Positions 14,604-62,870 of a DNA stretch of 64,000 nt are shown piece by piece. The notes under the pieces were generated by a model that ran no database searches, was not told the DNA's origin, and worked only from the letters and a program-made list of their open reading frames with translations. Source of the stretch: Buxus sempervirens (taxonomy: Eukaryota; Streptophyta; Magnoliopsida; Buxales; Buxaceae); contig OX387187.1 of the NCBI GenBank assembly GCA_947561395.2, positions 21,123,829 through 21,187,828 of the forward strand, written 5' to 3'. The stretch's first letter is position 1, and each line of letters begins with the position of its first letter. A program made the position numbers and the translations under genes.

Positions 14604-17600
14604 TGTAAGCACCTTATTTTTGCACCCCTGGAAGTGCTGAAAATGAAAACCCTAGCAGAAAAGTCAAACCCTGAGGGGTCGAAATTTGACCTTTTGATTA
14701 AGTGATAATTGGCCACCTTGCTTTATCTCAATGGATAGAGAATCCCGACACGGTTCCAACTCAACTAAGTTTTCTGGAATCGGAGTTCGGATGAAGGTTC
14801 TGTGGGCCAGTCAAACTTAAGGGGGAGCCGAAAGTTGACTTTTTGTCGAACCCCGGGCCAGGTGTTTAGCCCTATGTCATTGGATAGAGAACTCTGATAT
14901 GATCCTAACGCAATTGAGTTTGCCCAAATCGGAGTACGGATAAAGGAGATATGAGCTGTCGAAGTTCCCGAGCAGCAAAACCAAAAACTGCACACGTGGC
15001 AAAAAGCCGCACACGTGGCGAGTGGCGCAAGAAAATATCTCGAGGGGCAATCCTTAAATATCCAAACATCTAAAAATCTCAGGGACTAAACCAAAATTCG
15101 CATGGGGCAATCCGTAGATATCCAAAAGTGTCAAATCGGTCAAATCGGTCGAATCGGTCAAGTCGAAGGGCAAATCCGTAATTTTTTTATTTGTATCCGG
15201 TCAAATATATTGGATACACATAGGTTTGTGTATAACCGACATCAAATGTCAAATACAAAGATTTGCTCAGCGAGATTCACGCCGATTCGTCGACAAATTC
15301 GCGGCAGCATTTAATTTTTGAAATTATTATGTCTTGTATCCGATATAATATGCCGGATACAAAGGGAGTGCAGTGTATCCGACATAATATGCCGGATACA
15401 AAGGAAGTGTAGTGTATCCGACATTAAATGCCGGATACAAAAATTTATCTATAAAAAGGCAACAGCAGCCCCATTTCCGGGGTTGGCTTGGTTTTGGCTG
15501 TTTTCCACTTCTTCTCCCCCACGAACCTTGCTCCAAGATCCCTCCTCCAAGCCCTTCCTTGCCCCCATAACCCCTCAAACACCCCACCTTGAGCTTCTCT
15601 TTCTCTCTTCACTTCTTCTTCTCCATTTTTTTACCCAAGACAAGGGTGGCCGGCTGCTGTTGGTGCAAGAAGAAAGGTGCTCCAGCTGCTTCCTTCACTC
15701 CAAGGAAGCTCCACACACCTCAAAAAGGGTCCTAAAACCCAAGGGTAAGGTTTCTTACCATGTTTCCTTGAACATATGTGAGAATGAAGTGTTTCTTAAG
15801 TATGTGTTTCTTCTTAGTATAAAGTTTGTCCCTATGCCTATTCTGCAAGTGTTTGATTCTTACTTTTGGAAACATGAAAATCTCCCAAGGTAGGGGAGTA
15901 CACGTATAATCTCAAGGGAGGATGAGAGCCTCCTCACATAGTTTTTTTGGTTGGTATTTGTGGCTTTTGTATGGTATGTTTGATTCCAATTTTGAAGGGA
16001 GCATGTTCCCTTTGTGTGCTTTTCCAATGTATCCCTCCAAGTAACCCCCTTTCTCTTCCCTTCTCTTAAATGCCCCTTTCCTTGGGTTGAATGAGTCATA
16101 TAAGTCAACCTTAGCATGCGGAGAATCCTATTTGACATGTGGTTAGTATCCCCTTCGTGCATGCCTATAGTCTTCATGTTATTCCACAACATGTAAAGCA
16201 TGTATGCTTAAGCTTTCTTATCACCTTGTGAACCTTTGTTATCATGTTTTGATCACTTTTGTTGGCTGTTCGGACCTCCTAAGGTCACCCTTGCTTGGCA
16301 TGAAAAGGGTCCCACTTGCATGCTAGTTTCTTTGTTTGCTAGAAACATGTCTAGGTAGTTGTATATATCATTATCCAGCATGAATTTACATGCATGAAAA
16401 TCAGATTTGATGTGCTAAGTTGTCCATCTTGTTCATATTAGCCCAATCTTAGATTTAAAGTGTGCTCGTGGCTCGTTACTATCTCATACATGTGAGGCTC
16501 TGTTTCTTTTGAGAGCATAGACTGAAGTAGGGATGCACAGATCCCTACCCATTTTTGTCTTGGTTGGGAAGGGGGAGATACACCCTTGGTCCCCTTGTTT
16601 CCCTTTGGGTTCGAAATCCCCTTTGAGAGAAGCCAAGTGGCTGTGGTTTGAACCACTGTGGGCCCACACAGGGGCCCACACCATTGCTAGAACACCCCAG
16701 AAGACCTAAGAACCCAAGCCCAATGCAAAAAACCTGAAAAACAGCTTCTGTATGTTGATCCGACAACTTAGGTCAGATCAACAGAGACCTATTTGTAGCC
16801 GGCAAAAGATGTCAGATACACTGAGACCTGTGTGTAACCGGCATCTTAGGCCGGCTACATTGCCAGACTGCATTTTTGCTAATTTTGTGATATTGTGCTA
16901 ATGTTTTGGTTTATTTGATCAATCTGGACGAACCAGAAGGGTTTCCGGGTCACCCGAAAAACCCAAGATGGGCCATTGACTGACCCGGTGCAAATTGACT
17001 CCCGATGGGCCTTCCAACGGGGCCCACCAAGCCCGACAGACTTTTTTTGATAAATCAAGATAAATTTAATTGAATGAGTGGGCCACACCATTGGAGGCCC
17101 ACCAAAGCCCAACTGGGGTAGCATGTATGTTTAGATCTAGGCTTGGTTTGGCCGAGACCACGGGTAGGGTCGATCGGGCCTGCTAAAGCCCATTAAATTG
17201 AACCAATTTTAGGGTTTCCAAACCCTAACTCATGAAGACTTGGGCTTTCAAGCCCAAGCCCAGGTAAAGGGCCCCAAGCCCAATGCTTGGCCCATTTTGG
17301 CACAGTTAACCCAGAAATCTGCAATCACTTGGCAACCCACTGTGTAGCCCACTCACGGGCCCACAAAGCAATCCAGACTCATTTTTTGCATGGAAATCCA
17401 ATTTAATCAAACTTGAACCATTAAATAAAATCAACTCATTTTGAACCAAGCCCAAAAGGCTTCCTAGGCCAGACTGAGGCCCACCAGGGGATACGTGGGC
17501 TTAACCAAGCCCACCAAGGGATCCGCAGGCCTTCCAACGGGGCCCGCCCAATCAAACTCATCTCATCTTTAACTAAAAAGATAAAATCAAGTAAAGGGAC

Positions 17601-17926
17601 CCACACCGCTTTGGCGGTCCCGCCAGACTTAACCGAATTGAATGCTGGAATAAGAATCGAGTGAGTGAGAGACCAAAATTGACTCAAACCAGGGAATCCT
17701 ATGGGACCCGTCTTTTGACAGGGCGGACCGGGGTGTTTACGGACTTTCCCAGACCACAACCGAGAACCTACTTAGAATCTCAAGCCGCAGACCAAGCCAT
17801 AATAGAAAAACTTAGGCACCCAGGTGTTTGCCTGCACCCCATCAGGCAGTGGCAACTCCAAACAAATCCCGAGGCACGCATCATTTTGCATGCACCTCGT
17901 CGTGCTACCGAAATCGGGTGCGCACA
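14604..17926 (+). mobile_element. Family-3 LTR (probable solo LTR, Tat-like Ty3/Gypsy)
   Basis: It begins TGTAAGCACCTTATTTTTGC and ends GGGTGCGCACA, with GGTAG on both sides (14599-14603, 17927-17931). It is 3323 bp. A TATA box lies at 15450-15457, preceded by an array of GTATCCG/CGGATAC half-sites (15192-15439). A second array is at 16756-16859. Near the end the segment AGGCAGTGGCAACTCC recalls the GGTGGCGACTCC signature of Tat-lineage LTR ends. No protein is seen. The inverted relative at 47240-61183 shares both ends. Confidence 0.85.
15450..15457 (+). promoter_or_regulatory. TATA box of the family-3 LTR
   Basis: TATAAAAA, placed directly after the palindromic array at 15192-15439. The inverted family-3 copy has its TATA box in a similar place (60494-60501). 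Confidence 0.6.
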
Positions 17927-26921: not shown

Positions 26922-26972
<51 letters not shown>

Positions 26973-27420: not shown

Positions 27421-27439
27421 CCATGGCTCTACAAGAATA

Positions 27440-38371: not shown

Positions 38372-41300
38372 TGTAAAATCCCAAATTTTTCAGAATTTTT
38401 AATTAAATAAATATTTGAATAATTAAATGTGACCGTTACTAAAATTTGAGAATGAATTTATATATGTAATCACATGGATGGAGGAGATCTGGAGTATGAA
38501 GTAGATCCAACCGTTGGATCATGAGATATTGGAGGTGAGTATAGTCTCCAGAGTTATTTTAAGTCTTATTAGTTAGTTGTATGATAGCTAATAGAGATGA
38601 GATACATGGGATAACCCATAATAAAATAGGGTTTCTCTTAATGTAGCATACGCTTGGATCGTATATACTGTTTGTCTCTGGCAGCTGAAGAGGGAGAACA
38701 CTGTGCAAAGGAGAGTTGCTGGTCGGAGAGCTCCTGTAAGCTAGAAGGAGCTATGTTTTGCTAAAAGGGGAGAGATTAGATCTTAAGCTAAGGAGACAAA
38801 AGAGGAATAAGGAGAGACAGCATTCTCTTGAGCAAACAAGAGGTAAGTAGCACACTGATTTGTCGTTAAATGTTGTTTATTGAGGTTTTGATCGAATAGC
38901 ATGTTTTGGAGTGTTGTATATATGATTTTGAATGTTATTAGAGATGATTATAATGTACAGAATAGGTTTTATTGCCTATAACGCATGTTTTGAGTTTTCT
39001 GAATTAACCGATGTTTGACGAACGCTCAACATGATCGCTTGAGCGATCCTGTTAAGCTTATCGACTGTAATTTCTATTAAATCAGTCGCTCAACACATTG
39101 CTTAAGCGATGGAGGTTGAGCGTCAGTTCAAAACTTATAAAATAATTAGGTCGCCCAACATGATTGCTTGAGCACCCGTGTTGTTTTCTAATCTAGACTT
39201 TAATACAAGATCACCCAACCGTTTCACTCGAATGTGTGGGTCGAGCGATCAACACAGGATTCTGAGTTTCTGAATTTTGAGGAAAATTATTTATTAAAAT
39301 GATTTCTAAAGATATTAAACCTATGTACCAACAAATATTAGGTGTTTACAAGCTGTTCTCACTGACCGTTTGATTAAAAATTATCTAATAAAAATTTTGG
39401 ATACGTTCTACTGTGTGTCCTATTTTGGTTATAAATGGAAAACTTGATTTGAGATGAATAAGATAATTTTACTCTGTATAAGTATGTATTTAAAGTGTTT
39501 TCAGTACTTGAAATTGTTAAAAAGGCTTTACACTAGATTTGGGTATGTTAAGTTACTTGTTGTATAGAGAATAAACTTTGAAAACCCTATATGCCACTAG
39601 GCCTTATTTTTGTTTTGCATTGATATTGAATGAGTTATAACTACTGGTGTCTAGTGGGCATAGTTGCATATGGATTCATAGGGTTAAGCTAGAGAGTGAA
39701 GAGGCCTTTCTTTGGTTGGTTATTACGAGTTTGCGTTCGCGCTTCCTTTGCAAGTTAGTTTGCATTAGGGGGTCTTCATATACAATAGGATTTCATTTCA
39801 GATACCAGTTGTTGGTGAGGTGCCCTGTATGTGTTGATTAGCGGCTATCCCCATGTTTAGATTCAGTGTCAGCATGCTTGGGTTGTACATGCCGAACTCC
39901 GTATTTCAATTATTGTTGTTGATACATGAATTTCGTGTACAATAAGTAGATGTCTAGGCCCCATATTTCGAATTCCAGTTGCTAGTATGAGGGTTGTGAT
40001 TACTAGCTTCGCTCATAAGTCACATGGTGGTGTAGACACCCCAAATTGCACTGCCAAATGAGAAAATAATAAAAACATGTAATTAGAGCTTAAAACAGGT
40101 CAAAAATGCATAAAAATTGACAAAACAGGCTTTGCCCGTATTTCCTTCACGGGCCAGTCACGCCCGAAAATTATCTACGGACAGGCGCGCCCGTAGTAAC
40201 AATACGGTCTCCGTTAGACCGTAAATCATTTACGGGCATTAAAGACACGTGCGAGTTTTGTCCTTCTCTCGATTTCCGAGCTTTATTTGAAGTCCAATAT
40301 ATCTTTAAACGAGCGAATTAAGTATTTTATTCGCTGAAGCCACCTTGGTTGGCTATAGATGGACATTATCTCTGTATTTCACTCTATCTTAAAGACCAGG
40401 CTATATCCTTCTGGACCAACCATGCCCCTGGGTGTGTCTATAAATAGAGGCTCTTTCCTCTAGTTAGAGGCCACGAAATTTTGAAGAATCAAAAGCTCCA
40501 AGAGAAGGAAAGGAATCCCTGCTGCTCTGCCTGCTCAATCCAGGTAAGTCCCCTATCCCTTGTTATTTTTTGTCTTCAATTCTAGATGTAATAGGATCAT
40601 CTTTATTGCTGTAGAATAAGGCCATATCTGTTTTTGTATTCCTAAACTTGTCTCTAAGTACCTCAAGGGTCTCTCTAGCCGTAAAACGTGAAGAGAGAAC
40701 TAGGGGAAAGGGGAACAGGTGGATCCCTAGAATAGTACCCCATATCTGTTTTTTTCTTTTAGAATAAAGCCTCTGATTGTGTTTGTGTAACCAAACCTAT
40801 CTCCAAGTACCTCAAGAGTCTCTCTAACCGTAAAACGTGAAGAGAGAACTAGGGGAAAAGAGAACAGGTGGATCCGTAAGGTAGACCCCCATGTGCTCTA
40901 ATATGTGAGATGTGGCTGTTTTAAATATCTTGATCATGTTTTAATGCTTTTATGATGAATCTGAATGAATAACATGAATCCAGGATGTTTATAGCATGAG
41001 ATCCCCACTATTTTCCAAAATTTGGATTTTTGCCACTTTTGCACCTACAGCACTATTTTCGTGATTTTTGTGATTTTAGGCTAGGATCCGGGATTTATCA
41101 TGATCAATATGGTAGATCTGAATCCAAAAGCCTGAAAATAAAATCTAGGGTTTCATGAGATGATTTTTAAATCGTTTTTAATTATTGAGAGAAGACCCTA
41201 CGGTCTAAATTCTCCCCTTTTGGTGTTTTTCATCAACGTGGGTATTTTTGGTTTTGATTTTCAGATTTAATGTGAAATTTGGGCTTTATCTATGTCCTGG

Positions 41301-42612
41301 ACTATTCAATTTCAATTTTGAAATATTTTATAAAAATCATATTTTTCTAGATTTCTAGAATTTTGACTTGAATCCAGATTTTTGGATTTTTCACTTTAAA
41401 TTGATTTTATTTGATTTTATCTCAATTTTATGTTGATCATGAAACCCTAAGAATGATATGATCATATTTGATAGTTCTGGATCAATCAGACTATTCATAT
41501 GAAAAAAAAACCATATATTTTTGCCTTTTTTGTGATTTTTGTGATTTTTATAGCAAGCTTTTTCCTTTATTTTTAACATGAACAATGCCTGGCAACCACC
41601 TTGTGTGGATGAATAGGGGTGCCTAACACCTTCCCCTGTTCATAACTTAATCCCCTTACCCATCTCTGGTTGTTTTTTAAAGAAGGGATATTTGGCCCTA
41701 AAATTGCCTTTTGTGCTTATTTGATATTTTGGTGTCCATTCACACCTAGATTGAATGGTGGCGACTCTTTGTTTTATATAATCCCGTGTGATGATTGAGG
41801 AAACCATGGAAATTGATTTTTTCCCATGTCTCACAGGTGGCATTGTGAACGGTGAGTGTCTTTTCAAATGCCAACTTTTCTTCATAAGTTCTACAGTATT
41901 CTGTGATGGTTGAATTTTGGGTATGGTTTATGCACTTTAGGATATACGGTTGACATTTTATATACAATGGTAAATTCGACTTATGTATTAAGAATTACAA
42001 TAATAGGATAGTTGCCATGATTATGATGGCCGGCAATATCCTCAGATTAGAGGCAGTTCTTACTTGGTGAATTGCTTTTATTTGAGTACTAATTTATTGT
42101 CGTGATTGTATCGTGATTACTTGATTACTTTTATCGAGCATGTAAGCATGATTATTTTTATATATAATTATTTATTCATGCATAGTGTTACCTACTAGAA
42201 TATTCGTATATCATCTGTGTGTTGTTTTGTTTTGTTTTCCAGCTAATCTATGTGAGGGCGACTTGGGGGTTGGTTATACTTAGGAAGAGATTGCTGATTT
42301 TCACCCGGAGGATTATTATTACCTCAAGTAGACTTTTTTTGGAGGTTGTTACAGATGATACTTTTATTTGTTACTATATGTTTTGGATGAACCCATTTTT
42401 ACCAAACTTATGATTTATTTTTTATGTGATGATTTAGATGATACATTTATCCACACTTATTGGTTATATTGATGATTATCTTTTGCACTCTAATATTAAT
42501 TGGTATTTATTATGAATTTAATGTCTCGTATTTAGTTTGTTTTAGGCCTAGTAGCACTTTAGATACGAGTTTAGTGCTCGTTTTGCATAGACCCCGGGTT
42601 CGAGGCGTTACA
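38372..42612 (+). mobile_element. Family-1 LTR-like element carrying a nested solo LTR
   Basis: It starts TGTAAAATCCC and ends GTTCGAGGCGTTACA, flanked by ATATT (38367-38371, 42613-42617). Without the nested 40031-41835 element it is about 2.43 kb, the family size. It holds GAG/GTAAGT near 38840, palindromic modules at 39013-39255 and the T/G tract ending CAG near 42241. No protein. Confidence 0.9.
40031..41835 (+). mobile_element. Family-2 solo LTR (Tat-like Ty3/Gypsy)
   Basis: It starts TGTAGACACCCCAAATTGC and ends CCATGTCTCACA, flanked by GGTGG (40026-40030, 41836-41840). Its 1805 bp equal the length of the 3' LTR of the complete element at 47974-58995. A half-site array (40134-40237), a TATA box (40439-40447), a GTAAGT near 40543 and two tandem copies of a block with AGCCGTAAAACGTGAAGAG follow in order. 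GGTGGCGACTC lies near the end. Older than the 47974 element, judging by its divergence from it. Confidence 0.92.
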
Positions 42613-43806: not shown

Positions 43807-44810
43807 ACACCAGGATGTGGATAGAATTCATACAAATCAGACGACATGAGGCCCTATCAATTTTCGATATTCGATGGGCTCCTTGCTGACGATTACACCA
43901 TGTAAACGGGGGCCCTTCATTGGCACCTCAATCAGGTTACACCTATCAAGAAAAGTTTGAAATGCTTCCACTTGGCGCTTTGAAAGTCTTAGACCACCTC
44001 TTTTTTCAGACTGCTCTTTCATTGCGTTGAAATCCCCGCATAACATCCAAGGTGATGCAAAAGTGTAAGCTTGATGTTCCAAGTATCTCCATTGAGATGA
44101 CTGTATTTCAAATCTGCTGCTGGCATGTACGAATACAAGGATCCAGGAGAACCCTTGATGAGCAACTTGCAATATAACATACCAGTCATTTGAAGCCAAT
44201 ACCATAATATCCACCACCTGCATCCATAGAACGAGAATACCTTCTCTACGATTAGCAGTAGGAATGATAAAAAATTATTAAGACCGAGTTTTCTTGCTAC
44301 TTTTTCTGATAATTTTGTATTTGCTAAAGTTTCAGATAACAAAAGGATTTGCGGTTTATGCCGCCAAAACAGTTCCTGCAAATGGGCTTGGGTAATAGCC
44401 TGTCCCAGGCCATTGCAGTTCCAAAAAAGAACCTTCCGGGGGAGAATCCGATATATCACGAATTTGCAGGGAGGAGGTAGAAGTAGAGAGTTTCCGTTTC
44501 TTAATGAGGTCTCCATCTCCTCAACCTGTCCTGTTTCTCAGAAGTCTGCTCTCAGGTTTCTTAATAGAGAGTTTGAGACTTGTCCATTAACAGGTGGGCT
44601 TGATCGACATCTTTTTAGGATAATTGGTGAATTTTGCGATTAATTGATGGTGTTAATTGGTAAGCTGCGACTTGGACAGTGTTCCCGTCTACAAAATCAC
44701 CAAGCTTGAAACCCATGACTTCCATGGGAAACCCACCTCTTCCTGTTATCAAAAACCCCAATCCAATAAATTTCATATCTAGTAAACATCTGAAACCCCA
44801 AATCACAACA
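43592..44810 (-). mobile_element. L1-type LINE fragment (ORF1 end and endonuclease)
   Basis: On the minus strand, 44806-44615 encodes a stretch with GGFPMEVMGFKLGDFVDGNT, of the kind found in plant LINE ORF1. Next comes VLFWNCNGLGQAITQAHLQE (about 44430-44370), the endonuclease start. It continues as LLLSETLANTKL and WMLCGDFNAMKEQSEKRGG (about 44045-43990). No reverse transcriptase remains; the sequence stops at the poly-C tracts. Frames are broken. It is a different subfamily from the LINE at 1-7244. Confidence 0.8.
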
Positions 44811-46664: not shown

Positions 46665-47210
46665 TGTAGACACTCTAAATTGCATTATAAAAATCAGTGG
46701 ATGAATATACTTGAAGAAGTTTTTATGCAAGTGTGACCGGTTTTGAGTTTTGGTCATGAGAAGTTTTTATGTAACCGAGAAAAGTATAATCAGTCATTAA
46801 TGGATATGTTATAACCGAAATTAATTATCGGTTCAGAAGATGAGCTGGCATCATGAACCTTTGGCAATTATGCCACATCAATAATTGCACATGGTTCATA
46901 ACTGAATTTGAACCGATGGTAAATTTCGGTTATGAATATATCAATGTATAACCGAAATGTTAATTCGGTTATAGTGAGTTTTGTATGTAACCGACCTGTG
47001 TTTCAGTCATTAATGAAAACTCTCAATTTTGAAAATTGCTATGAGCTTGCTCTTATTTACCATCCAACCTTTCTTCGAAAGACTTGGATTGCCCAATTTG
47101 ACCTCCAAAATTGAATGAATACCTTCAATTCATGCTTTAGGCTTGAATTGGAACGATCTAGACACATTTTTGTGTCTACCCTTGGGACTTTTCTACCCTC
47201 AAGTTCGCTT

Positions 47211-47218
47211 ATAAATAG
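47211..47218 (+). promoter_or_regulatory. TATA box of the old family-2 LTR
   Basis: TATAAATA at the position equivalent to 40439 and 48379 in the other family-2 LTRs, followed by the same GGTCTCTCCTT-like word. Confidence 0.6.
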
Positions 47219-47973
47219 GAGGTCTCTCCTTAAGCAAAGTGTGCGCGCCTGACTTTGGTGTGTCGCACTGGGTAGAAATGGGAAATTGGAGTCGCCACCG
47301 CCTGATGGGGTGCAGGCGGACACCTGGGTACTTAGATTTTCTATTAGACTGGTCTGCGGCTTAGAGATTCTAAGTAAGTTCTCGGTTGCGGTCTGGGGAA
47401 GTCCGTAGACACCCCAGTCCACCCCGTCAAATGACGGGTCCCATAGGTTTCCCTGGTTTGAGTCAACTTTGGTCTCTCACTCACTCGATTCCTATTCCAG
47501 CATGCAATTTGATTTAAGTTTGGCGGGACCGCCAAAATGGTGTGGGTCCCTTTACTTGATTTTATCTTGTTTTAGCTTATAGTGAGATGAGTCTGATTGG
47601 GTGGACCCCGTTGGAGGGCCCACAGATCCCTTGGTGGGCCAAGTGTGGCCCACATATTCCTTGGTGGGCCAAGTGTGGCCTACATATTCCTTGGTAGGCC
47701 AAGTGTGGCCTTTTGGACTTTGGTTCAATTTGACTGGATTTTATTTCGAAGTTCAAGTTGGGTTATTAAGTGATTTCTATGCAGAGTGGGCCGGATTGCT
47801 TTGCGGGCCCCACAGTTGGTTGCAAAGATGATTTGAGATTATCTTGATTAGTTTCCAAAATGGGTCAGGCTTTGGGCTTGGGGCCCTTTACCTGGGCTTG
47901 GGCTTGAAAGCCCAAGACTTCCGGGGTTAGGGTTTGAAACCCTAACCTTGCTCGGTTTTGTGGGCTTAGTGGG

Positions 47974-49670
47974 TATAGACACCCCAAATTGCACTAAAAT
48001 GAGAAAATAATGAAAACATTAATTGGAAGTTAAAACAGGCAAAAAATGCATGAAAATGAATAATTTAAGCCTGGACCGTATTGTATCTACGGGCTAAGCG
48101 CGCCCGAATTTTATATACGGGCACGCAGCGCCCGTAATACAAATACGGACACCATTGGACCGTAACTCATTTACGGGCACATCAGACTCGTGCGAGTTCT
48201 GTTATTCTCTCGATTTCTGAGCCTTATCTTTAATCCAATATCCCTTTAAATGAGCGAATTATATATTTTATTCGTGCGAAATATCTTTGTGGATAAAGGA
48301 TGAGCATTATCTTGTGTTTAACTCAAACTGAAATTCTATCTTGCCAAACCTTGGACCAACCATGCCCCTGGGTTTGCCTATAAATAGAGGGCCTTTCCTC
48401 AAGCAAAAGGCCACAAAATTTTGAAGTCCAAGGAAGTCTAAGAAGCTCCAAGAGAAAAGAGGAATCCCTGCTGCCTTGCTTGCTCAATCCAGGTAAGTCC
48501 CTTTTCCCTTTTATTTTCTGTCTTCAATTCTAGAAGCAATAGGATCATCTCTATTGCTGTAGAATAAGGCCATCTTTTGTACTTGTATTCCTAAACTTGC
48601 CTCTAAGTACCTCAAGAGTCTCTCTAGCCGTAAAACGTGAAGAGAGAGCTAGGGGAAAAGAGAACAGGTGGATCCCTAGAATAGAACCCCATATCTGTTT
48701 TTCTCCTTTTTTTTAGAATAAAGCCTCTGATTGTGTTTGTGTACCCAAATCTATCTCTAAGTACCTCAAGAGTCTCTCTAGCCGTAAAACGTGAAGAGAG
48801 AGCTAGGGGAAAAGAGAACAGGTAGATCCGTAGGGTAGACTCCTATATGCTCTAATCTGTGAGATGTGGCTGCTTTAAATATCTTGATCATGTTTTAATG
48901 GTTTTTATGATGAATCTGAATGAATACATGAATCCATGATGTTTATAGCATGAGATCCCCACTTTTTTTTTTATAAAATTTGGATTTTTCACATATTTGC
49001 ACCTACAGCACTGTTTTCGTGATTTTTGGTGATTTTAGGCTAAGATCCTGGATTTATCATGATCAATATGGTAGATCTGAATCCAAAAGCCTGAAAATAA
49101 ATTCTAGGGTTTCATGATGTGTTTTTTAAATCGTTTTTCATTATTGAGAGAAGACCCTACGGTCTAAGCTCTTCCCTTTTTATGTTCTTCATCAACGTGG
49201 GTATTTTTGGTTTTGATTTTCAGATTTAATGTGAAATTTGGGCTATGTCTATGTCCTGGACTATTCAAGTTCAATTTTGAAATATTTTATAAAAATCATA
49301 TTTTTCTAGATTTCTAGAATTTAACTTGAAGCTAGATTTTTGGATTTGTCACTTTGAATTGATTTTATCTCAATTTTATTTTGATCATGAAACCCTAGGA
49401 ATGGTATGATCATATTTGAAAGTTCTGGATCAATCAGACTATTGGTATGAAAAACCATATATTTTGTCTTTTTTGTGATTTTTGTGATTTTTATAGCAAG
49501 CTTTTTTCTTTGTAAAACATGAACAATACCTGGCAACCACCTTGTGTGGATGAATAGGGGTGCCTAACACCTTCCCCTGTTCATAACCTAATCCCCTTAC
49601 CCATCTCTGGTTGTTTTTTTTAGAAGGGTTATTTTTACCCTAAAATTGCCTTTTGTGCTTATTTAATATT
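47974..49670 (+). repeat. 5' LTR of the gag-only element
   Basis: It matches the 3' LTR almost base for base. It has the half-site array at 48074-48178, a TATA box at 48379-48387 and a GTAAGT near 48493. The block with AGCCGTAAAACGTGAAGAG appears twice about 168 bp apart. The exact border with the leader is not clear to me. Confidence 0.85.
48379..48387 (+). promoter_or_regulatory. TATA box of the 5' LTR
   Basis: TATAAATAG, identical and at the same offset in the 3' LTR (57596) and in the solo LTR (40439). Confidence 0.65.
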
Positions 49671-51846
49671 TGCTTGCTATTTTGTGTTCTTAAGCATGTT
49701 GAGTATGTTTTAAATCTGAATTATTGCTTAAGAATTCATGAGGGTAGAAACATGCTTAATTTTGATTTATAGGATTGTTTCTACAAACATGCGTAGGGGA
49801 GGTTCGTTTTGCTGAACCATGTTTATTTCTTGCTATATTTTTATGATAGCATGTTTTAATTTTCAGCATGATCTCCATGATGATTTTTGGTGTATAACAT
49901 GATCATATGTTTGCATGATTAGATGATTTTTTTATGAGCATGTTTTAGGTGCTATAGGATTGTTTGCATATTTGTTTACTTTAAATATGCTTTCCTATTA
50001 TGCCTTGGTTTATTTATGCATGGCTGCGAAAAGAGTGGCAAGGGTTTGGGACGTTGTGAATGCACCCTATTTTTACAATGCACTGTGCACATTTTATTTT
50101 TTTACATAGCCTACCCTTAACCTATAGGAAGTTGAACCCGAATGTGTGTAGCTTGGCGCAACGAGGTCGATACTTCAGAAAGCGAAAGTGAAAACATTTA
50201 CCTTAGAACTTTGGGCCAATGATGCGATGATAACATGGATCTGGGATTCTGGTAATCACTAGGCTTGAGTGCTAAGTTGCCATTAAGCCAAAACCCCTAC
50301 GCTTGAAGGTGGAGATACACGTTTTTGGTTAAAACACATAATTACGTGGGAATATGGGTTTGTAATTGTGGGAAGGCCGTTTGCATGGCTTACAAACCGG
50401 GCATAATGCGGATGCCATATTGAAGGTAAACAAGGTAATCCTATTTTTCTACATTGTATTCATGTCATAGGGGTGTCAGGGTACCCATTGGTTTGGGGAC
50501 AAAATTGGTCCCAAATATGCATGTTATTAAGCATGGTGTAGCCCATTGGAAGAGTCTCTAACTCTGTTTAGAATCAATCCTACCCAATGTTTGTACAAGA
50601 GGCAACAAAAGGGTACCAAAGTATGAGTATGGTGTCAATTTGGAAGGTACATGTGCCCTCCTAAACATGTGTTTTGCCAAAAAGGTCAAAGTCCACTTTG
50701 GGACAGTTTAGAAGCCCTGCACTGGGTGAACCGTATGTTTGGATGAACAATTAAAGTGATCAAACCATGTAAAAACTGGAAAAATATAACAGAGTTCCGT
50801 AAAACCGCATTTAGTACACGGGCTGGGCTTGCCCGTATTAGTTATACGGGCTGGGTTCGTCCGTGTTTTCCATACGGTCACGGCTCGCTCGTAATTTGAA
50901 TACGGGCAGGGCTGGACCGTACTGTGTATACGGTTTTCTCGGAAAATTCAATTTTAATCAGTTTTTTCCACTAAAATCTTCCTTTAACCTTTAAATAATG
51001 ATAAAGGGAAATGAGTTTGAATCAAATGCTTCAAAAAAAAAAAAGAAATGTGAGAGAAAATCCTTTGGGTCTCTGAAAGCCTTTGAATTTCAGACTTTTT
51101 CTCAAAAACTCCTTGGGCCTCTGAAAGCCTTTGAATTTCAGACTTTTTCTCAAAAAAAATCCTTGGGCCTCTGAAAGCCTCTGAATTTCAGACTTTTTTT
51201 CAAAAAAAAAATTTCTGGGCCTCTGAAAGCCTTTGAATTTCAGACTTTTTCTCAAAAATCCTTTGGGCCTCTGAAAGCCTTTGAATTTCAGACATTTATC
51301 AAAAATCTCTGGGCCGTCTAAAAGCCTCTAAATTTTAGACAAATCATTTCTTTGGGCCGTTTATAAGCCTCTGAATTATAGACACATATCCTTTGGGCCT
51401 CTGAAAGCCTTTGAATTTCAGACTTTTTCCAAAAATTTCTTTGGGCCGTCTATAAGCCTATGAATTATAGTCACATATCCTTTGGGCCTTTGAAAGCCTT
51501 TGAATTTCAGACTTTTTCCAAAAATATCCCTGGGCCTCTGAAAGCCTTTGAATTTCAGACTTTTTACAAAAGTTTCTTTGGGCCTCTGAAAGCCTTTGAA
51601 TTTCAGATCCTTTTCTTTCTTTTTGTGGGACCTGTTGGAAGCCCTAGAATATTCCAACAATTCAATTCAAAAAAAAAGAAGCAAATAAAGAAAAAAATCC
51701 AAACTCGTGTTCACCTAGTTTGCACATAGGCATTCCTAGGCATGTGAATGAGATTAAATGGACACTGATATGTTTCTTTTATTTTCGTCAGGTACCAAGT
51801 ACGCTTGCAACCATAGCTCTTGTAACCAGATCAAGAGCTCGCACCA
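49671..51846 (+). other. Leader of the gag-only element
   Basis: Non-coding. Contains a second half-site array (50818-50933) and the minisatellite (51063-51610). Confidence 0.7.
51063..51610 (+). repeat. Twelve-unit minisatellite of hairpin units in the leader
   Basis: Units of about 42-51 bases: TTTGGGCC, an inverted repeat around GCCTTTGAA or GCCTCTGAA, then a T-rich/A-rich spacer. Most units have CTGAAA...TTTCAG. Units at 51316, 51359 and 51448 have different but still pairing arms. Confidence 0.9.
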
Positions 51847-51926: not shown

Positions 51927-53936
51927 ATGCTAGAGAATATACTATCAGTGCAGGCCCAACAAGTCGAAGCCCAGAACCAAGCCTCCACTTCCAACCAAGC
52001 ACATCCACCTCAAACCAACATTCCACCTCCAGTTCAACCTATTCCTAAACCCATTTTTGAACCTACCCCTGAACCTATACTGATCAGGGAAGAAATAGTT
52101 GAGTTTGAGAAAGAAAAGGAAAAAGAGAGAATGAGGGATGATATGGAAAAGAAGTTCATGCACAGACTGAAGATGATTCAAGATGAATTAAGGGAGGTAA
52201 AAGGGGTGAATAACTTTGGAGGCACCAATTTCGAAGATTTGTGTCTATACCCCAATGTATGCTTACCGGCCAAATTCAAGTGTTCGGACTTTGACAAGTA
52301 TGATGGCACGGGCTGCCCCATAAGCCATTTGAAGTTGTACTGTGGGGCCCTATGCCAATTCGGTCGAGATGACGGCATACTAATTCAGCTCTTCCAGAGG
52401 AGTTTAACTGGAGTTGCTTTGAGGTGGTTTGCCACTTTGGATCATGGGAAAATAAGAAGGTGGAAGGATTTAGCAGATTCATTTTTGGCACAATACAGGT
52501 TCAACTATGAGATTATACCAGATAGGTATGACATGATGAGGATGACGAAGAGAAATGATGAGACCATAAGGCAATATGCTAAAAGGTGGAGGGAGTTGGT
52601 TGCACAAATCAAGCCACCCGTGGGAGAACCAGAAATGATTTCAACTTTCATCATGACATTGGGGCAACCATTTTATAGTCACTTGGTGGGTCAAACTACC
52701 ACCAACTTTGTTGCCCTAGTGCAAGTGGCAGACAGAATTGAAGATGGGATCAAGTTTGGGAAAATAGCTGATTACTCTACAGTGTTGAACCAAGAAGCTT
52801 CCACCACTTTCTCTACACAGAAAAAGGAGAATGGTAATGGAAGAATAAAGAATGAAGAAGGGAGAGAAGCAGAAGTGAATATGGTGCAACTTCCTAGGGA
52901 ACCCTTTCAAAACAATGTCCATCCACCTCCTATCAAGCCAACCCATCAAGTTCCTTTGCTGCCTATCCAAATTAATGTCCCTTCTGCACAACCTGTGAAG
53001 GAGGAAACAGAAGTAAGGAAGAGAAGGGAATTTTCTAAACTGCCTATGAGACCATATGAACTTTTGCCTACCTTACTTCAAAAGGGTTATGTGACTTTGA
53101 GGTTGCCAAATCCTCATGCAAGCAAAGGGAAGAATTATGATTTATCTGCAATCTGTGATTATCATATGAGCACTCCAGGGCATACCACAGATCGTTGCTT
53201 GGCCCTAAAGCATGCAATTCAGGATTTGTTGGATAATAACTCCTTATCATTCAATTCAGTCACTCCCATCCCACCTACCGATAACAATGGGGCAGGTAGC
53301 TCAAATGCAATAGGGGCAATTTTTCCAGGGAAAAAAGGATTTGATCCTTCTCAACTTATTGCTCTAGTTGGTACCATAGTCCGGGTTTATTTTGAAAAAG
53401 AAGATGAATGGGGCCATATGGAAAAAGAGACTCACACAGGGGCAGATTTTAAGCTGAAGTTGAAAGAAAATGAAATAACAGGTGAAAAGGCAGAGGAGGT
53501 GCAAACAATTCCCTTTGAGCAGTCTGAGCAAACAAATGACCTAGCACTGGATGTTGAGCAGGAATTCAGTATGGACGATAATGATTTTCCGAAGGGTATG
53601 GAATCACTCTTCATACAAGAAGAAAATGAAGCAGGGGCAATTGAAAGGGGAGAATCCCAGGAAAAGAAAGAAGAAGAATCAAATGAAAAGATTGAGGCCA
53701 GGTTTAAGCTTCCATTGATTGACTGGGCTGCAATCCAGATTCCATATCAAGGAATGTCACTTCTTTCAGAGACTGAGCATAATGCCCCAGAGAAGGAGAT
53801 CATCCCAAATCATGAAGGTTTGCCTCACTCAGCAGGAGAAAGAAATTATCTGAAAAAGGGAGAAAAGTCAACTGTTGCCTTTGAGAACAGGGGCAGTTTT
53901 CGAACTCCCATGTTCTTTGAAAAAAAACTCCCATAA
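51927..53936 (+). CDS. Gag protein of the Tat-like element
   Basis: The long open frame is 669 codons. Gag-like coding appears to begin slightly upstream, near 51847. The N-terminal part is Pro/Gln-rich, followed by a charged helix-forming stretch (about residues 55-95). The retrotransposon capsid domain is about 110-280, with DKYDGTGCPISHLKLYCGAL, then RSLTGVALRWFATL and SFLAQYRFNYEIIPDR. A zinc-knuckle variant CDYHMSTPGHTTDRC follows (about 411-425). These are hallmarks of Tat/Ogre-lineage Gag. The C-terminal third is Glu-rich and has no recognised domain. Gag would package the RNA into particles. The part after it lacks all pol domains. Confidence 0.88.
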   Translation: MLENILSVQAQQVEAQNQASTSNQAHPPQTNIPPPVQPIPKPIFEPTPEPILIREEIVEFEKEKEKERMRDDMEKKFMHRLKMIQDELREVKGVNNFGGTNFEDLCLYPNVCLPAKFKCSDFDKYDGTGCPISHLKLYCGALCQFGRDDGILIQLFQRSLTGVALRWFATLDHGKIRRWKDLADSFLAQYRFNYEIIPDRYDMMRMTKRNDETIRQYAKRWRELVAQIKPPVGEPEMISTFIMTLGQPFYSHLVGQTTTNFVALVQVADRIEDGIKFGKIADYSTVLNQEASTTFSTQKKENGNGRIKNEEGREAEVNMVQLPREPFQNNVHPPPIKPTHQVPLLPIQINVPSAQPVKEETEVRKRREFSKLPMRPYELLPTLLQKGYVTLRLPNPHASKGKNYDLSAICDYHMSTPGHTTDRCLALKHAIQDLLDNNSLSFNSVTPIPPTDNNGAGSSNAIGAIFPGKKGFDPSQLIALVGTIVRVYFEKEDEWGHMEKETHTGADFKLKLKENEITGEKAEEVQTIPFEQSEQTNDLALDVEQEFSMDDNDFPKGMESLFIQEENEAGAIERGESQEKKEEESNEKIEARFKLPLIDWAAIQIPYQGMSLLSETEHNAPEKEIIPNHEGLPHSAGERNYLKKGEKSTVAFENRGSFRTPMFFEKKLP

Positions 53937-57190: not shown

Positions 57191-58995
57191 TGTAGACACC
57201 CCAAATTGCACTAAAATGAGAAAATAATGAAAACATTAATTGGAAGTTAAAACAGGCAAAAAATGCATGAAAATGAATAATTTAAGCCTGGACCGTATTG
57301 TATCTACGGGCTAAGCGCGCCCGAATTTTATATATGGGCACGCAGCGCCCGTAATACAAATACGGACACCATTGGACCGTAACTCATTTACGGGCACATC
57401 AGACTCGTGCGAGTTCTGTTATTCTCTCGATTTCTGAGCCTTATCTTTAATCCAATATCCCTTTAAATGAGCGAATTATATATTTTATTCGTGCGAAATA
57501 TCTTTGTGGATAAAGGATGAGCATTATCTTGTGTTTAACTCAAACTGAAATTCTATCTTGCCAAACCTTGGACCAACCATGCCCCTGGGTTTGCCTATAA
57601 ATAGAGGGCCTTTCCTCAAGCAAAAGGCCACAAAATTTTGAAGTCCAAGGAAGTCTAAGAAGCTCCAAGAGAAAAGAGGAATCCCTGCTGCCTTGCTTGC
57701 TCAATCCAGGTAAGTCCCTTTTCCCTTTTATTTTCTGTCTTCAATTCTAGAAGCAATAGGATCATCTCTATTGCTGTAGAATAAGGCCATCTTTTGTACT
57801 TGTATTCCTAAACTTGCCTCTAAGTACCTCAAGAGTCTCTCTAGCCGTAAAACGTGAAGAGAGAGCTAGGGGAAAAGAGAACAGGTGGATCCCTAGAATA
57901 GAACCCCATATCTGTTTTTCTCCTTTTTTTTAGAATAAAGCCTCTGATTGTGTTTGTGTACCCAAATCTATCTCTAAGTACCTCAAGAGTCTCTCTAGCC
58001 GTAAAACGTGAAGAGAGAGCTAGGGGAAAAGAGAACAGGTAGATCCGTAGGGTAGACTCCTATATGCTCTAATCTGTGAGATGTGGCTGCTTTAAATATC
58101 TTGATCATGTTTTAATGGTTTTTATGATGAATCTGAATGAATACATGAATCCATGATGTTTATAGCATGAGATCCCCACTTTTTTTTTTATAAAATTTGG
58201 ATTTTTCACATATTTGCACCTACAGCACTGTTTTCGTGATTTTTGGTGATTTTAGGCTAAGATCCTGGATTTATCATGATCAATATGGTAGATCTGAATC
58301 CAAAAGCCTGAAAATAAATTCTAGGGTTTCATGATGTGTTTTTTAAATCGTTTTTCATTATTGAGAGAAGACCCTACGGTCTAAGCTCTTCCCTTTTATG
58401 TTCTTCATCAACGTGGGTATTTTTGGTTTTGATTTTCAGATTTAATGTGAAATTTGGGCTATGTCTATGTCCTGGACTATTCAAGTTCAATTTTGAAATA
58501 TTTTATAAAAATCATATTTTTCTAGATTTCTAGAATTTAACTTGAAGCTAGATTTTTGGATTTGTCACTTTAAATTGATTTTATCTCAATTTTATTTTGA
58601 TCATGAAACCCTAGGAATGGTATGATCATATTTGAAAGTTCTGGATCAATCAGACTATTGGTATGAAAAAACCATATATTTTGTCTTTTTTGTGATTTTT
58701 GTGATTTTTATAGCAAGCTTTTTTCTTTGTAAAACATGAACAATACCTGGCAACCACCTTGTGTGGATGAATAGGGTGCCTAACACCTTCCCCTGTTCAT
58801 AACCTAATCCCCTTACCCATCTCTGGTTGTTTTTTTTAGGAGGGTTATTTTTACCCTAAAATTGCCTTTTGTGCTTATTTAATATTTTGGTGTCCATTTA
58901 CACCTAAATTGAATGGTGGCGACTCTTTGTTAATTTAATCCCTCGTGATGATTGAGGAAGTCATTGGATTTTTCGATTTTTTCCCATGAATCACA
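57191..58995 (+). repeat. 3' LTR of the gag-only element
   Basis: 1805 bp, TGTAGACACC...ATCACA. Half-site array at 57291-57395, TATA box at 57596-57604, GGTGGCGACTC near 58914. Confidence 0.92.
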
Positions 58996-59340
58996 GTGGG
59001 CCCGATAGGCCCTACTCGTGGTCTTGGCCAAACCACAACTTTAACTACACATGCATGGCCCGCGTAGGGCTTGGGTGGGCCTCAAGTGGTCTGGCCCACT
59101 CAATCAAATTGGTTAACCTTATTTTGAGCAAAAAAGTAAGTTTCTCGGGCTGGGTGGGCCCCATTGGAAGGTCCACTGGAAATCAGGTTAGACCGGGTGG
59201 TCTGAGTCCCATGTTGGGTTTCCGGGTGACTCGGAAACCCTATTGGTTCATTTGGTTCGGTTTAAGAATTCCATCCACATCCCGCAAGAATTACAGAAAT
59301 CACAAGTCACAAAAATCATAGAATATACACAGATCACAAA

Positions 59341-59775
59341 ATACCTGGGTCCAAGGGGAGGGACTTGGGGCCCCTGTGGGCGGAGTGAAGCGGAGCCCAC
59401 GGGGCAAGGTCCCTCCCCGCACCAAGGAACGAGTTGGATGCGCGGCGAACAACGGGGTTGGGGGGGGGGGGGGCGGGGGGTGGTACGGTATAAGGGTATT
59501 TTCGGATTTAAGAAAAAATATAAGCAATTTGACCTTTTAAAGGGGGTGCGCTGACCTCCGGGCGCTGGGCGCAAGGTCAGCGCGAGCCCGGCGGACCGAA
59601 AACGGCCGAGAAAAGGCACCCGCGCGCGCACTAGGCGCGAGCGAGGCGCGCACTAAACACGAGCGAAACGCGCTAGCGCGAGCTAGGTGTGAGCCCCGAG
59701 CAAGCCTCGCGCGAGCTCGGCGAGCGCGAAAGTGCTCCTCGCGAGCTCAGCGTGGGCTCCGCGCGAGTTCGGCGC
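59341..59775. repeat. CG-rich island with GCGCGAGC-type inverted words and a poly-G run
   Basis: CG dinucleotides are dense in this otherwise AT-rich region. Words like GCGCGAGC and GCTCGCGC alternate. A run of 13 G interrupted once occurs near 59460-59480. It lies inside the inverted family-3 element at a place roughly matching the second array of 14604-17926. Confidence 0.6.
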
Positions 59776-60493
59776 ATGCCCTTGTCGAAACGTGGCTCTC
59801 TGTTTCTTGCTCGAACTCCATTACTGACTGGTTTTTGGAGCTCTATAACAGCTTTCTGACGTTTCTATCACTCCCAAAAGACACTTAAACATGCATTGAA
59901 ATTAATTTGAACTACTTTACCCCATGACCCAAGATCTCCTCGCACACATCCCAAATCCGAAAACAGAATACTAACAGCACTAACAAAGAAGGGAACAGGG
60001 GGCTTTACATCGGGGTACATGAGATTAGAGGAGGTGACCACGGGGAACAAGCTCCCATGCTCGAATCAAACAAGCCAGAACATCAAATAACATGCTAGAA
60101 AAGAGGAAGCCCGATTTATATATGTTAAACCAAAATAGGGAGAGCTTACCTTGGGCTTTTAAGCCTTCGTAGAGTCTGCGTGAGGCCTCTTTGGAGGGCA
60201 CGAGCAGCTGACGGAGGCTCCTTCTGCTTGCACCAACAGCAAGCCTCCTTCGGGCTTGTCGGGGAAGAAGAAGAAGAGAGCAACCCAGGGTGGAAAGGGT
60301 TTCAAGCGAATGCGGGATAGTTATTCGTGGAAGCAAAGGGAGGTATACGGAGGGTTCCAACCAAGGAGGAGTGGGGAAGACAAACTCTCTGTGGGAAGAG
60401 CTAACACCAGAGAAAGCCAAGCCCCAAAAAAACGAAACCAGGAAGAAGACTCCGAGAAAGACCGCCGAACCCTAAAGATGAATGAGGCTGCTG

Positions 60494-60501
60494 TATTTAT
60501 A
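60494..60501 (-). promoter_or_regulatory. TATA box of the inverted family-3 LTR
   Basis: TATAAATA on the minus strand, with the half-site pair GTCGCTCG / CGAGCGAC (60557-60575) just upstream in its own orientation. Confidence 0.55.
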
Positions 60502-62870
60502 GAGGTAATTTGGGGTATCCATTGGGTTTGGCGCCGAGCTCGCGCCGAGTAGCTGTCGCTCGACACGAGCGACAAAATGATTAAATCAATTAATGCAGCC
60601 GCGGGTTTGTTTAAAAAATCTGAAAATTAAGATATAGTCCCTGGGATATTTTGATTTAATATTATTTTATTTAGATATTTTCATATATTTTCAGATTGGT
60701 CCCTGGGATCTTTTGAATGTTTGGATATTTACGGATTTGATCCCTGAGATATTTTCCTGTGCAACTTGCCACGTGTGCAGCTCTCTGCCACGTGTGCAGT
60801 TTTCCAGTTTTGCTGCTCGGGAACTTTGACAGCTCATATTTTTCTTCATCCGGGCTCCGATCTGGGAAAACTCAGTTGCGTTAGAACCGTATCGGAGCCC
60901 TCTATCCAATGGCATGGGGGTAAGCACCTGGATCGGGGTTTAGCAGAAAGTCAACTTTCGGCTCCCCTTCAAGTTTGACCGCTCGCAGAACCTTCATCCG
61001 GACTCCGATTCCAGCAAACTCAGTTGCGTTGGAACCGTGTCGGGATTCTCTATCCATTGAGATAGAGCAAGGTGTTCAATTATTACTTGGTCAAAAAGTC
61101 AACATTTATCCCCTTAGGGTTTGACTTTCTGCCAGGGTTTTTATTTTCAGCACTTCCAGGGGTGCAAAAATAAGGTGCTTACACAAAGTGCTGAAATTTT
61201 GAAGAACAAGAGCTTTTGCTAGAGGAGGGGAGACTCTGTCCAAGTGTGCCCTCACTCACCAAAGGCTTCCAAAAGGCTTTTCCCAAGGTATAATTCCTTT
61301 TAATTCCAGTACTCTCTTTACAATTCAAGCTCTCTCATCTCCTACCTTTCTGTAGAATAAGGCTTGAGTGTGTTTGAATCCCCAAACTATTGATCAAAGT
61401 ACCTTAAGTCTCTCTATAGCCGTAAAATGTGAAGATAAGACTAGGAGAAGAGATCTATGGGATGGATCCTTTAGGAATAGAACTTATTTGCTTTAATCAT
61501 TTTTCATTCCTTATGGTTATGCTTTGATCAATTGATTTTGATAATTTTTTCTTTTTTTTTTTGAGAGGAATTTCATAGATCTAGGCCACCTCTTGATCTG
61601 AAATTTCTCCATATATATTGTGGAGTTTTTTTTAACACTACACACTCATGGATTCACTTTGGCTTTATTTCAAATTATAGGCATAAATTCTTGGATCTAC
61701 CATGATCAATATGGTAGATCTGAGAATTGAGCCTTAAAACAATATCTCAGGACCTCTTGACATGCTTTTAAGTTGATTTGATCTATTAGAGAAGGCCTCA
61801 TGGCTCGTTCTCTCTAGATCTAAAGAATTCCAAATAAATTTGGACAATATTTGGCTCTTACTCTCTAATTAATATGGGATTTGAGCCTAATCTATGTCCT
61901 AGATTTTTTTAGTCTTTTATGTTTCATTTTAGATTTTTTTTAGAATAGTTTTGGATAGCTTAATGCACAGATCCAAAGATTTGATGAAGTTTTTACTCAA
62001 TTTTTACAAGATCAGGACAGAACCTGTACTCTTACTTGTTTCACTCATAACTTCATCATATGGATGAATTTTTTGAGTGATTACAATGGCATATGAAAGG
62101 TACAGAGGTCCAATTTAATCCTTTAAATTTCGAGCAATTTATATAAAGCCGTTTGTTCACTCCATTTGATTGAAGTTGACAAGTTTGTTTCATATAGATT
62201 GCTATACTTATCATTTTGATCGAGCACCAAAGGCTCATTTCAACTCTGTTCTAATTGATTCTTGTTTTTAAGTCTTTCTTTATGATCTAATTTCAAATCC
62301 AAGTGGTTTTGTAATTTTTTGAGTCAAAATTGTGGTCTGTGTGAGTGATTGACCTTGTACCGCTCAATAGCATATTACAGGGTCAATCTGTGATTGAGTT
62401 AGCATATTTATGAGTACACATAGACTTCATATGGATGAACTCAGGGCTGAGGCCTATGCCATTCAAAAGATGGTGTTTAGTACTCCATTCATACTAATTT
62501 TCATGGATTTATATGGAGCCAAACTCCACGAATAAGCTTGTGAAGTGGAGTTGGTCATTACTTTATTTGTGATAGATCAACAACTTTGAACAGGCATATC
62601 TCTCTTTATTTTAATCGGATTTGGATGAAATTTTTACTGAGTTTTTAACTTCAAGTAAGATTTCAAATGGCTTTCGTTTTGTCCAATTTGAGTTTGAAAT
62701 GAATGAGTTATGGTCATTTTAAAGTGCATAGCTCAAATAGCTTATTCTTGCACTGATTTCTAGATTTGATTTTATCTTTGCTTATTTGATTTTCACCTTG
62801 ATTTTTGATTTGATCAAGATGTCCTAAGAGTGATGAATCCACAGGGAGAGTCCAAATTGGTTGGACAACT

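Follow-up and report, generated by a model that had tools for sequence, protein, structure and literature searches.

What reads the arrays of short inverted half-sites that stand in the long terminal repeats (LTRs) of retrotransposons in a 64,000-nucleotide stretch of the Buxus sempervirens genome (GenBank assembly GCA_947561395.2, contig OX387187.1, positions 21,123,829 to 21,187,828; this whole stretch is called the window below)? An earlier note on this DNA had described such arrays in every long LTR family, with position kept and sequence replaced. We find that the arrays are built on a constant skeleton overlooked there, CCG and CGG separated by 11 bases (CCG-N11-CGG), and that an element carries one version of it, its word, wherever its arrays stand; we are confident that this rule-bound and abundant cis code, with one word per element, is real. 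As a full explanation we favor, at a probability of roughly 0.6, an element-specific dimeric factor, most likely one of the element's own plant mobile domain (PMD) proteins, which would activate or unsilence the promoters of its own subfamily.

All subfamily words examined contain CCG-N11-CGG, and the bases beside the triplets vary (GCCCGTA, ATCCGG, AACCGCA, AACCGAA). The window holds 23 such sites, whereas the other spacings from 0 to 30 average 2.53 and reach 6 at most; among spacings of 31 to 40 the highest counts are 11 (at 39) and 8 (at 40). All but one (22/23) fall in seven array stretches, of which five belong to LTRs and one to a leader and the seventh lies at 16.8 kb; shuffles of these stretches yield 0.32 CCG-N11-CGG sites on average and never more than 3. 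Nineteen representative LTRs contain 54 sites at N11, 0 at N10 and 4 at N12, the next most frequent spacings between 0 and 40 being N39 (15) and N37 (10). Across the whole genome (676.5 Mb) CCG-N11-CGG occurs 163,369 times, compared with 43,280 for N10 and 40,613 for N12, an excess of about 120,000. The control GGC-Nk-GCC has no peak at N11 (143,005 at N10, 126,325 at N11 and 105,655 at N12) and, because it is not CpG-matched, the N10 and N12 spacings of CCG...CGG served as the main controls. For a closer view of the site, 64 of 161 distinct 31-mers were retained as thinned sites; offsets 4, 5, 9 and 10 from the center are paired in 43 to 56 of these 64 and offsets 1 to 3 in 16 to 23, so that the half-site reads NNCCGNN. 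The two arms of one site agree beyond their word class, with 220 paired cells compared with 202.7 expected when right arms were redealt within the class (0 of 500 shuffles as high). Gal4-type sites, CGG-N11-CCG, have equal spacing with the triplets reversed, a likeness that says nothing on kinship.

Within the window, inverted 6-mer pairs were counted per stretch and compared with 500 dinucleotide shuffles. None of the shuffles was as high as the count at 40125-40245 (7 pairs, shuffle mean 1.05) and 48064-48185 (6 pairs, mean 1.12), where the word TACGGGC/GCCCGTA is present at 40134 and 48074; at 46734-47010 (16 pairs, mean 4.8), an older copy of the same family with a word of its own; at 15130-15450 (16 pairs, mean 5.35), where the family whose LTR starts at 14.6 kb carries GTATCCG/CGGATAC near 15192; and at 50803-50935 (6 pairs, mean 1.4), the leader of the element that we call E2. 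Two stretches were weaker, 57281-57402 and 16740-16880, each with 4 pairs, a shuffle mean of 1.21 and 13 of 500 shuffles as high. A TATA-like box follows the arrays at 15, 40, 46.7 and 48 kb, all of which stand downstream of their LTR start. The earlier note's extension of the arrays to every long LTR family is too wide: it stands for the TGTAGACACCCC family, including the diverged 46.7 kb copy, and for the 14.6 kb family, but not for the family it numbered 1, because a single one of four family-1 stretches was significant (7751-8050, 12 pairs, mean 3.0, 0 of 500 shuffles as high; 36, 91 and 63 of 500 as high in the other three) and CCG-N11-CGG occurs in none of the four regions. The inverted 6-mers of 7751-8050 are dense and irregularly spaced and possibly form a separate, unrelated type of array. 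The words that had been named occur at or beside the places given for them, apart from GAGCGACC: in the supposed family-1 pair GGTCGCTC/GAGCGACC, the former lies at 7783 and 7930 and the latter only at 19492, in another copy. Likewise, the array ascribed to a relative of the 14.6 kb family at 60557 comes down to one palindrome, TGTCGCT-N7-AGCGACA (60554..60574, minus strand), which is not of the CCG-N11-CGG type and sits in a putative relative of the 14.6 kb LTR; its inverted 6-mers were reached by 225 of 500 shuffles and its 5-mers by 3. As for position kept and sequence replaced, the layout is indeed kept and the replacement is partial, in that CCG...CGG at 11 bp stays and the flanking bases change. 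Selection seems to act on the palindromic architecture rather than on a single fixed word, as had been proposed, given that word and period agree per element and that the arms of one site covary.

The family extends far beyond the window. The 20-base LTR start TGTAGACACYCYAAATTGCA occurs 9,291 times in the genome as an exact match (4,702 + 4,589; control, 0). From 70 of 100 listed LTR places, eight further loci and the window we obtained 83 LTR starts, 74 of them distinct after removal of identical ones, which form 17 clusters at the chosen cut-offs; the 19 representative LTRs stand for 16 of the 17 clusters plus three extra, an LTR interrupted by a nested LTR being excluded. Among the 74 distinct 5' LTR ends, clusters differ in word at a similar position, about 90 to 380 bases into the LTR, and TATAAA lies within LTR bases 301 to 500 in 63. 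The words are GCCCGTA-N7-TACGGGC for subfamily A, ATCCGG-N9-CCGGAT for B, AACCGCA-N7-TGCGGTT for C, AACCGAA-N7-TTCGGTT for D and GTATCCG...CGGATAC for the 14.6 kb family. Intermediate words, GACCGTA and AACCGTA, lie between those of A and C, which suggests that specificity drifts in steps. Of the palindromes counted across the genome, 11,266 have two A arms, 3,706 have two C arms and 113 are A/C hybrids, the low number of hybrids owing much to family structure. Many A-word sites (G000, C1:2232660-8122423, e.g., at 2232688 and 8110204) have palindromic or nearly palindromic centers (CTTCAAG, TTTGAAA) and C-word sites have similar ones (CTTTAAG, CTTGAAG), so some subfamilies may fix the middle of the site as well. 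At C1:8464678-8571951 (G000), eight TGTAGACACCCC-family LTR starts follow one another on the minus strand in steps of about 15.3 kb, an arrangement that resembles a tandem array.

Does one element use one word throughout? Full-length elements were compared for subfamily A (C9:21.593 Mb, LTRs 99.5% identical over 1,500 bp) and subfamily B (C1:3.441 Mb, LTRs 100% identical over 1,500 bp). Both have arrays in the LTR, in the leader ahead of gag and upstream of each of two antisense genes in the interval between pol and the 3' LTR. In two C elements (C1:20.07 Mb and C9:39.24 Mb), whose leaders lie outside the fetched sequence, arrays were found in the LTR and ahead of each antisense gene; in the C stretch L107 the expected gene or LTR was not found. 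Taking units with an exact CCG-N11-CGG core, as in the comparisons of period and center that follow, word similarity between places within an element averages 0.918 (18 pairs, lowest 0.779; 14 arrays in four elements), as against 0.082 between subfamilies at the same place (16 pairs, highest 0.335). The element-wide match of words is reached by 4 of 1,152 permutations, the observed one included. The array period is 27-28 or 55-56 bp in A and 38-39 bp in B, at all four places each, and is irregular in C. When places within one element are compared, agreement is 0.73 for the flanking bases and 0.50 for the 7-bp centers (random centers, 0.36); comparison between subfamilies gives 0.29 and 0.42, respectively. 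Because the centers agree less than the flanking bases within an element, the arrays are not simply one copied block, and some copying of array units is possible.

The antisense genes themselves provide candidates for a reader. Elements A and B carry gag, reverse transcriptase (RT), RNase H and integrase between near-identical LTRs and are not Mutator-like carriers; their pol contains RT_RNaseH and RVT_3, i.e., a second RNase H domain, and antisense open reading frames (ORFs) lie between pol and the 3' LTR, both of which are traits of the Tat group (Ogre/Retand type). Gene 1 matches PF10536 (E 1.1e-16 in A and 4.6e-14 in B; 61.4 and 52.8 bits), and gene 2 matches PF24924 (E 5.4e-21 in A and 1.7e-8 in B) as well as PF10536 (E 1.3e-10 and 4.7e-10; 41.4 and 39.6 bits), the PF10536 scores all lying above the curated cut-off of 34.9. 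Homologs of the gene-1 exon are present in both C elements, where gene 1 is antisense and adjoins the 3' LTR. Between A and B, protein identity is 91.7% for pol, 72.8% for gene 2 (second exon 76.2%), 64.5% for gag (second part 68.4%) and 51.2% for gene 1, with nonsynonymous divergence (dN) of 0.044, 0.147, 0.224 and 0.448, respectively. The ratio of dN to synonymous divergence (dS) is 0.03 to 0.20 where dS is computable, values that are rough because dS is saturated in most comparisons. By these measures the element genes look to be under constraint, gene 1 changing fastest.

We sampled places in the genome matching the domain DUF7745, fetching 20 of 118 scored places. Seventeen of the 20 belong to the element type, with one or more CCG-N11-CGG sites about 300-420 bp upstream of the match in every case; the other three (L102-L104), of another PMD type, have no such upstream site, one of them (L103) having a single site elsewhere in its 620 bp. 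Gene-2 protein distance correlates with the distance between promoter-array words (r = 0.87, 0 of 5,000 permutations; 17 loci plus A and B, with L102-L104 left out and ancestry not corrected for). As far as such distances go, the correlation shows that word and protein travel together; it does not single out the reader. In B, a piece of ORF downstream of the gene-1 PMD exon gives a coiled-coil match (E 0.0013, below the cut-off of that family), a hint of a feature that would suit a dimer.

We propose that the arrays are putative duplex-DNA sites for a sequence-specific factor, probably a dimer, of which each retrotransposon subfamily has its own; the site is a palindrome of about 21 bp in which two 7-bp half-sites, NNCCGNN, face each other with 7 nearly free bases in between. 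Members of the factor family would keep the contact to CCG and the dimer geometry while contacts to the neighboring bases change, which would give each subfamily its own word. Sites precede every predicted transcription unit examined, namely, the LTR promoter and the two antisense genes, and they stand in the leader besides. The reader would most likely be one of the two antisense PMD proteins, with gene 1, the fastest-changing, as the first candidate, and a positive loop may result in which the PMD protein acts both at its own promoters and at those of the rest of its subfamily, copies without a PMD match, such as E2, among them. The likely effect is activation or the removal of silencing. 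The reader's identity as a PMD protein, its binding as a dimer and its activating or unsilencing effect upon binding are what we infer from this arrangement. More specifically, the Gypsy PMD proteins may be the readers of CCG-N11-CGG, with each subfamily's reader drifting along with its word, present in thousands of copies across the genome, such that a subfamily activates itself, gene-less copies included, and not its relatives within one nucleus; this we advance tentatively, at slightly under even odds.

The palindromes could alternatively act as RNA, as hairpins in the 3' untranslated region and leader that serve dimerization, packaging or end-to-end pairing. Stems of 7 bp with 7-base loops and arrays close to both RNA ends would suit such a role, as would the leader location, given that packaging signals are expected in the leader. 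Folding of the sense RNA should favor G.U pairs over A.C mismatches. However, offsets 4, 5, 9, 10 and 11 of the 64 thinned sites gave 220 paired, 20 G.U, 29 A.C and 51 other cells, and within-class shuffles gave 23.4 G.U and 31.8 A.C, the observed G.U count being reached by 467 of 500; the half-sites are thus without a G.U excess, and an excess at offsets 12-15 (48 G.U, 21 A.C) is matched by shuffles (49.0 and 21.9) and hence attributable to base composition. The loop length is rigid, as the counts at N10, N11 and N12 (0, 54 and 4) in the representative LTRs attest, A half-sites are evenly spaced in both directions and so have no preferred pairing partner, and arrays stand upstream of the antisense genes too. 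Missing G.U bias, rigid spacing and half-sites that are steadier than spacers fit recognition of duplex DNA and not of RNA hairpins. RNA structure, which the earlier note had entertained as a function, was accordingly rejected as a candidate on the G.U/A.C balance and the spacing, and we consider it very improbable. The steadiness of the half-sites is seen among related, non-independent copies: cells off the majority amount to 4.7% in half-site columns (CpG apart), 14.4% in spacers and 6.2% in flanks for 13 A copies, and to 9.3%, 15.8% and 5.9% for 36 B copies, and since B half-sites vary more than flanks, constraint is claimed relative to spacers alone. These figures also bear on neutral turnover of tandem repeats, in which functionless palindromic units would spread by slippage and conversion. 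Periods of 28 and 39 bp do resemble tandem repeats, spacers change fastest, and unit centers within an array agree above chance (0.53, compared with 0.36 for random centers). Flanking bases nevertheless agree more than centers, both within an array (0.72 versus 0.53) and between places (0.73 versus 0.50); spacing and CCG persist between subfamilies that have diverged almost to saturation at synonymous sites; and arms of different words are seldom mixed, all of which leaves this account with a slim chance.

Silencing offers a further account, in which the host recognizes the CG-bearing palindromes, or makes small RNAs from them, and the words change by escape. Every half-site has a CpG in a CCG context, and RNA-directed DNA methylation targets noncoding regions of VANDAL elements (PMC10398659; this and the other papers are cited here from excerpts). 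Escape would, however, favor loss of the arrays, and they are kept before the predicted genes examined. Moreover, CpG decay is lower in the half-sites than at the remaining CpGs of the same LTR parts, at 3/104 (2.9%) versus 19/156 (12.2%) in A and 16/287 (5.6%) versus 18/144 (12.5%) in B, counted over the same related copies in 8 array columns each and in 12 (A) and 4 (B) other columns. Lower methylation and selection on the sites both fit this lower decay, and the arrays may help an element to escape silencing; as silencing targets we think them highly unlikely. Host transcription factors are the rival that deserves most thought, although it too is unlikely: the subfamilies would have captured sites for different paralogs within one family of host factors, and each paralog would drive the LTR and internal promoters of its subfamily. 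In LTRs, TATA-like boxes do follow the arrays, antisense gene 2 of A has an array ahead of it, and arrays of host-factor sites in LTRs are a known principle, exemplified by the heat-shock elements of ONSEN. But several words share one rigid geometry and each is element-wide, which would require paralogs that differ in preference for the flanking bases only, and the word tracks the clade of the element-encoded PMD protein, though ancestry alone could produce that.

Several observations weigh against our proposal that a subfamily's own dimeric factor reads the arrays. The skeleton is absent from the four family-1 regions and was not found in the 60.5 kb relative of the 14.6 kb family, no promoter was identified at the leader array, and the G.U excess at offsets 12-15, though matched by shuffles, and the variability of B half-sites relative to flanks go the wrong way. 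The permutation test of words covers three subfamilies, and unit centers agree above chance within an element (0.50 versus 0.36), as copying would give. For the C elements, the roughly 3 kb between both PMD genes lies outside the fetched sequence. No D element was found with both its LTR and its PMD gene, as the 3' stretch of L105 held other arrays and repeats and no LTR start; comparison by eye placed none of the 41 D-LTR places near a listed DUF7745 place. Saturation of dS weakens the claim of constraint, gag (dN 0.224) evolves fast as well, so that rapid change is no mark of the PMD genes in particular, and shared subfamily ancestry alone would yield the correlation of word and protein. Finally, a sequence search for solved structures related to the gene-1 PMD exon gave no hit with E up to 1, so DNA binding by the PMD is without structural support here.

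Within the window, subfamily A is represented by an LTR at 40031..41841 (plus strand, as are the features below), which starts with TGTAGACACCCCAAATTGCA, matches 47972-49671 at 86.4% and 57191-59001 at 86.2%, and carries its GCCCGTA/TACGGGC array at 40134..40237 with four CCG-N11-CGG sites (40136, 40164, 40191, 40219). The two matching stretches are the LTRs of E2. Its 5' LTR (47974..49671) and 3' LTR (57191..58995, the end being approximate; placed by sequence comparison with the 5' LTR) are 99.65% identical over 47976-49671 and 57193-58887; the former is about 110 bases shorter at its 3' end and opens with TATAGACAC instead of TGTAGACAC. Both have A-word arrays, at 48074..48178 (four CCG-N11-CGG sites at 48076, 48104, 48132 and 48160) and at 57291..57395 (57293, 57349 and 57377). 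A further A-word array, overlooked by the earlier note, stands between LTR and gag in the leader (50803..50935, with CCG-N11-CGG at 50805, 50833, 50861 and 50917 and a mismatched unit at 50889). Self-comparison revealed tandem repeats between this array and gag (51046..51677); the B element also has leader tandem repeats (L080, 2785-4072), unlike those of E2, and in both cases the repeats follow the array and some frames are open throughout. The gag ORF of E2 (51927..53936, 669 amino acids; PF03732, E 1.6e-11) is 64% identical over 443 amino acids to the gag of the full-length A element, and pol and PMD pieces of A, B, C and D have no match in the window at E up to 1e-3. E2 (47974 to about 58995) looks like a recent non-autonomous copy that has kept its sites and lacks reader genes, as is expected if the reader acts in trans.

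Between these elements lies an older, diverged LTR of subfamily D with the same type of start (TGTAGACACTCTAAATTGCA; 46665..47250, the end being approximate). It has 41 scored matches in its own genome, itself included, the long diverged copies being 71-79% identical, and its word TAACCGAA/TTCGGTTA forms an array at 46812..46971 with CCG-N11-CGG at 46815, 46913 and 46952. The 14.6 kb family, whose LTR starts with TGTAAGCACC at 14604, has its array at 15336..15438 with a 39-bp period (units at 15340, 15379 and 15418), and a weaker array with the same skeleton, of unsettled position within its element, lies at 16758..16856 (exact unit GTAACCGGC at 16838, mismatched unit at 16760). Elsewhere, degenerate tandem repeats of the GAGATGTGACCTCCTG type occupy 19883-20332, a direct duplication of about 215 bp (96% identical) lies at 43567-43998, and GC-rich GCGAGC/GCTCGC repeats at 59501-59800 give the top count of CG-bearing inverted 6-mers in a scan of the window (17), their inverted-pair total being reached by 11 of 500 shuffles. 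ORFs at 537-1538 and 6327-7079 with PF03372 endonuclease/exonuclease and PF13456 RNase H-like domains are perhaps parts of non-LTR elements.

Among the extra antisense proteins of giant plant Gypsy elements, the PMD proteins now have a concrete candidate target, and one that brings its own control: if our reading is correct, the protein of subfamily A is predicted to bind its own GCCCGTA-N7-TACGGGC but not the B word ATCCGG-N9-CCGGAT, and the B protein the opposite. The elements would then also offer a natural series of dimeric DNA-binding proteins whose specificity changes, and the host silencing proteins MAIN and MAIL1 would be relatives of the reading system. Antisense ORFs in Retand-type elements and PMDs in Gypsy elements were already known (PMC11963269, PMC7264820, PMC9289625, PMC5418596). 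PMD is the most frequent atypical domain in plant Gypsy elements, with function given as unknown (PMC9289625). Our elements resemble those PMD-encoding Ty3/gypsy elements in encoding PMD proteins, and differ in having two PMD genes behind arrays with the element's own word, a cis target that the excerpts of that paper do not describe. They share with Retand and Grande antisense genes between pol and the 3' LTR, for which a regulatory role has been proposed, and family-specific tandem repeats. The function of the antisense ORFs of Retand-type elements is called unknown, and Grande gene23 is reported to have an antisense promoter of its own (PMC11963269, PMC7264820). However, the LTR is about 1.8 kb here, compared with a published 315-1,194 bp, the Retand domain TRP28 (PF04195) was not found in the 18 A and B protein pieces scanned (10 + 8, covering the exons in part), and palindromic target arrays are not described in the excerpts of those two papers. 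Loss of MAIN or MAIL1 in Arabidopsis lowers expression of genes that share the promoter motif 'DOWN' (PMC7156037), again linking PMD proteins to a shared promoter motif; those are host genes, whereas the PMD genes here are element-encoded, and direct binding of MAIN or MAIL1 to DNA is not reported in the excerpt. Among the papers listed in our literature searches, none ties palindromic LTR arrays to PMD proteins, which is not proof of absence.

The closest parallel is that of VANC and VANDAL, which the earlier note had drawn and which we judge right, since words vary by subfamily and the elements carry fast-evolving candidate reader genes. VANC21 binds the 9-base motif YAGTATTAY in noncoding regions of VANDAL21, often in tandem repeats, and VANA is more conserved than the VANC proteins and their targets, which diverge between families (PMC5735166). 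In both systems, fast-diverging, subfamily-private motif arrays, often tandem repeats, stand in noncoding parts, and a conserved enzyme gene (pol here, VANA there) accompanies a divergent accessory gene. The carriers differ, VANDAL being a Mutator-like DNA transposon and ours an LTR retrotransposon, as do the sites, which are here palindromes of fixed CCG-N11-CGG geometry, unlike YAGTATTAY. The proteins differ as well: VANC has DUF1985/DUF287, the candidates here are PMD/DUF7745 proteins, and Pfam scans of the antisense ORFs at E up to 1, which covered the exons in part, did not find DUF1985 or DUF287. For VANC, binding and demethylation have been demonstrated; here, both are putative. On the cis side the present system works like VANC/VANDAL without being a member, its carrier and protein domains being different, and if our reading is correct, LTR retrotransposons, with proteins of another domain, would follow a principle known from DNA transposons.

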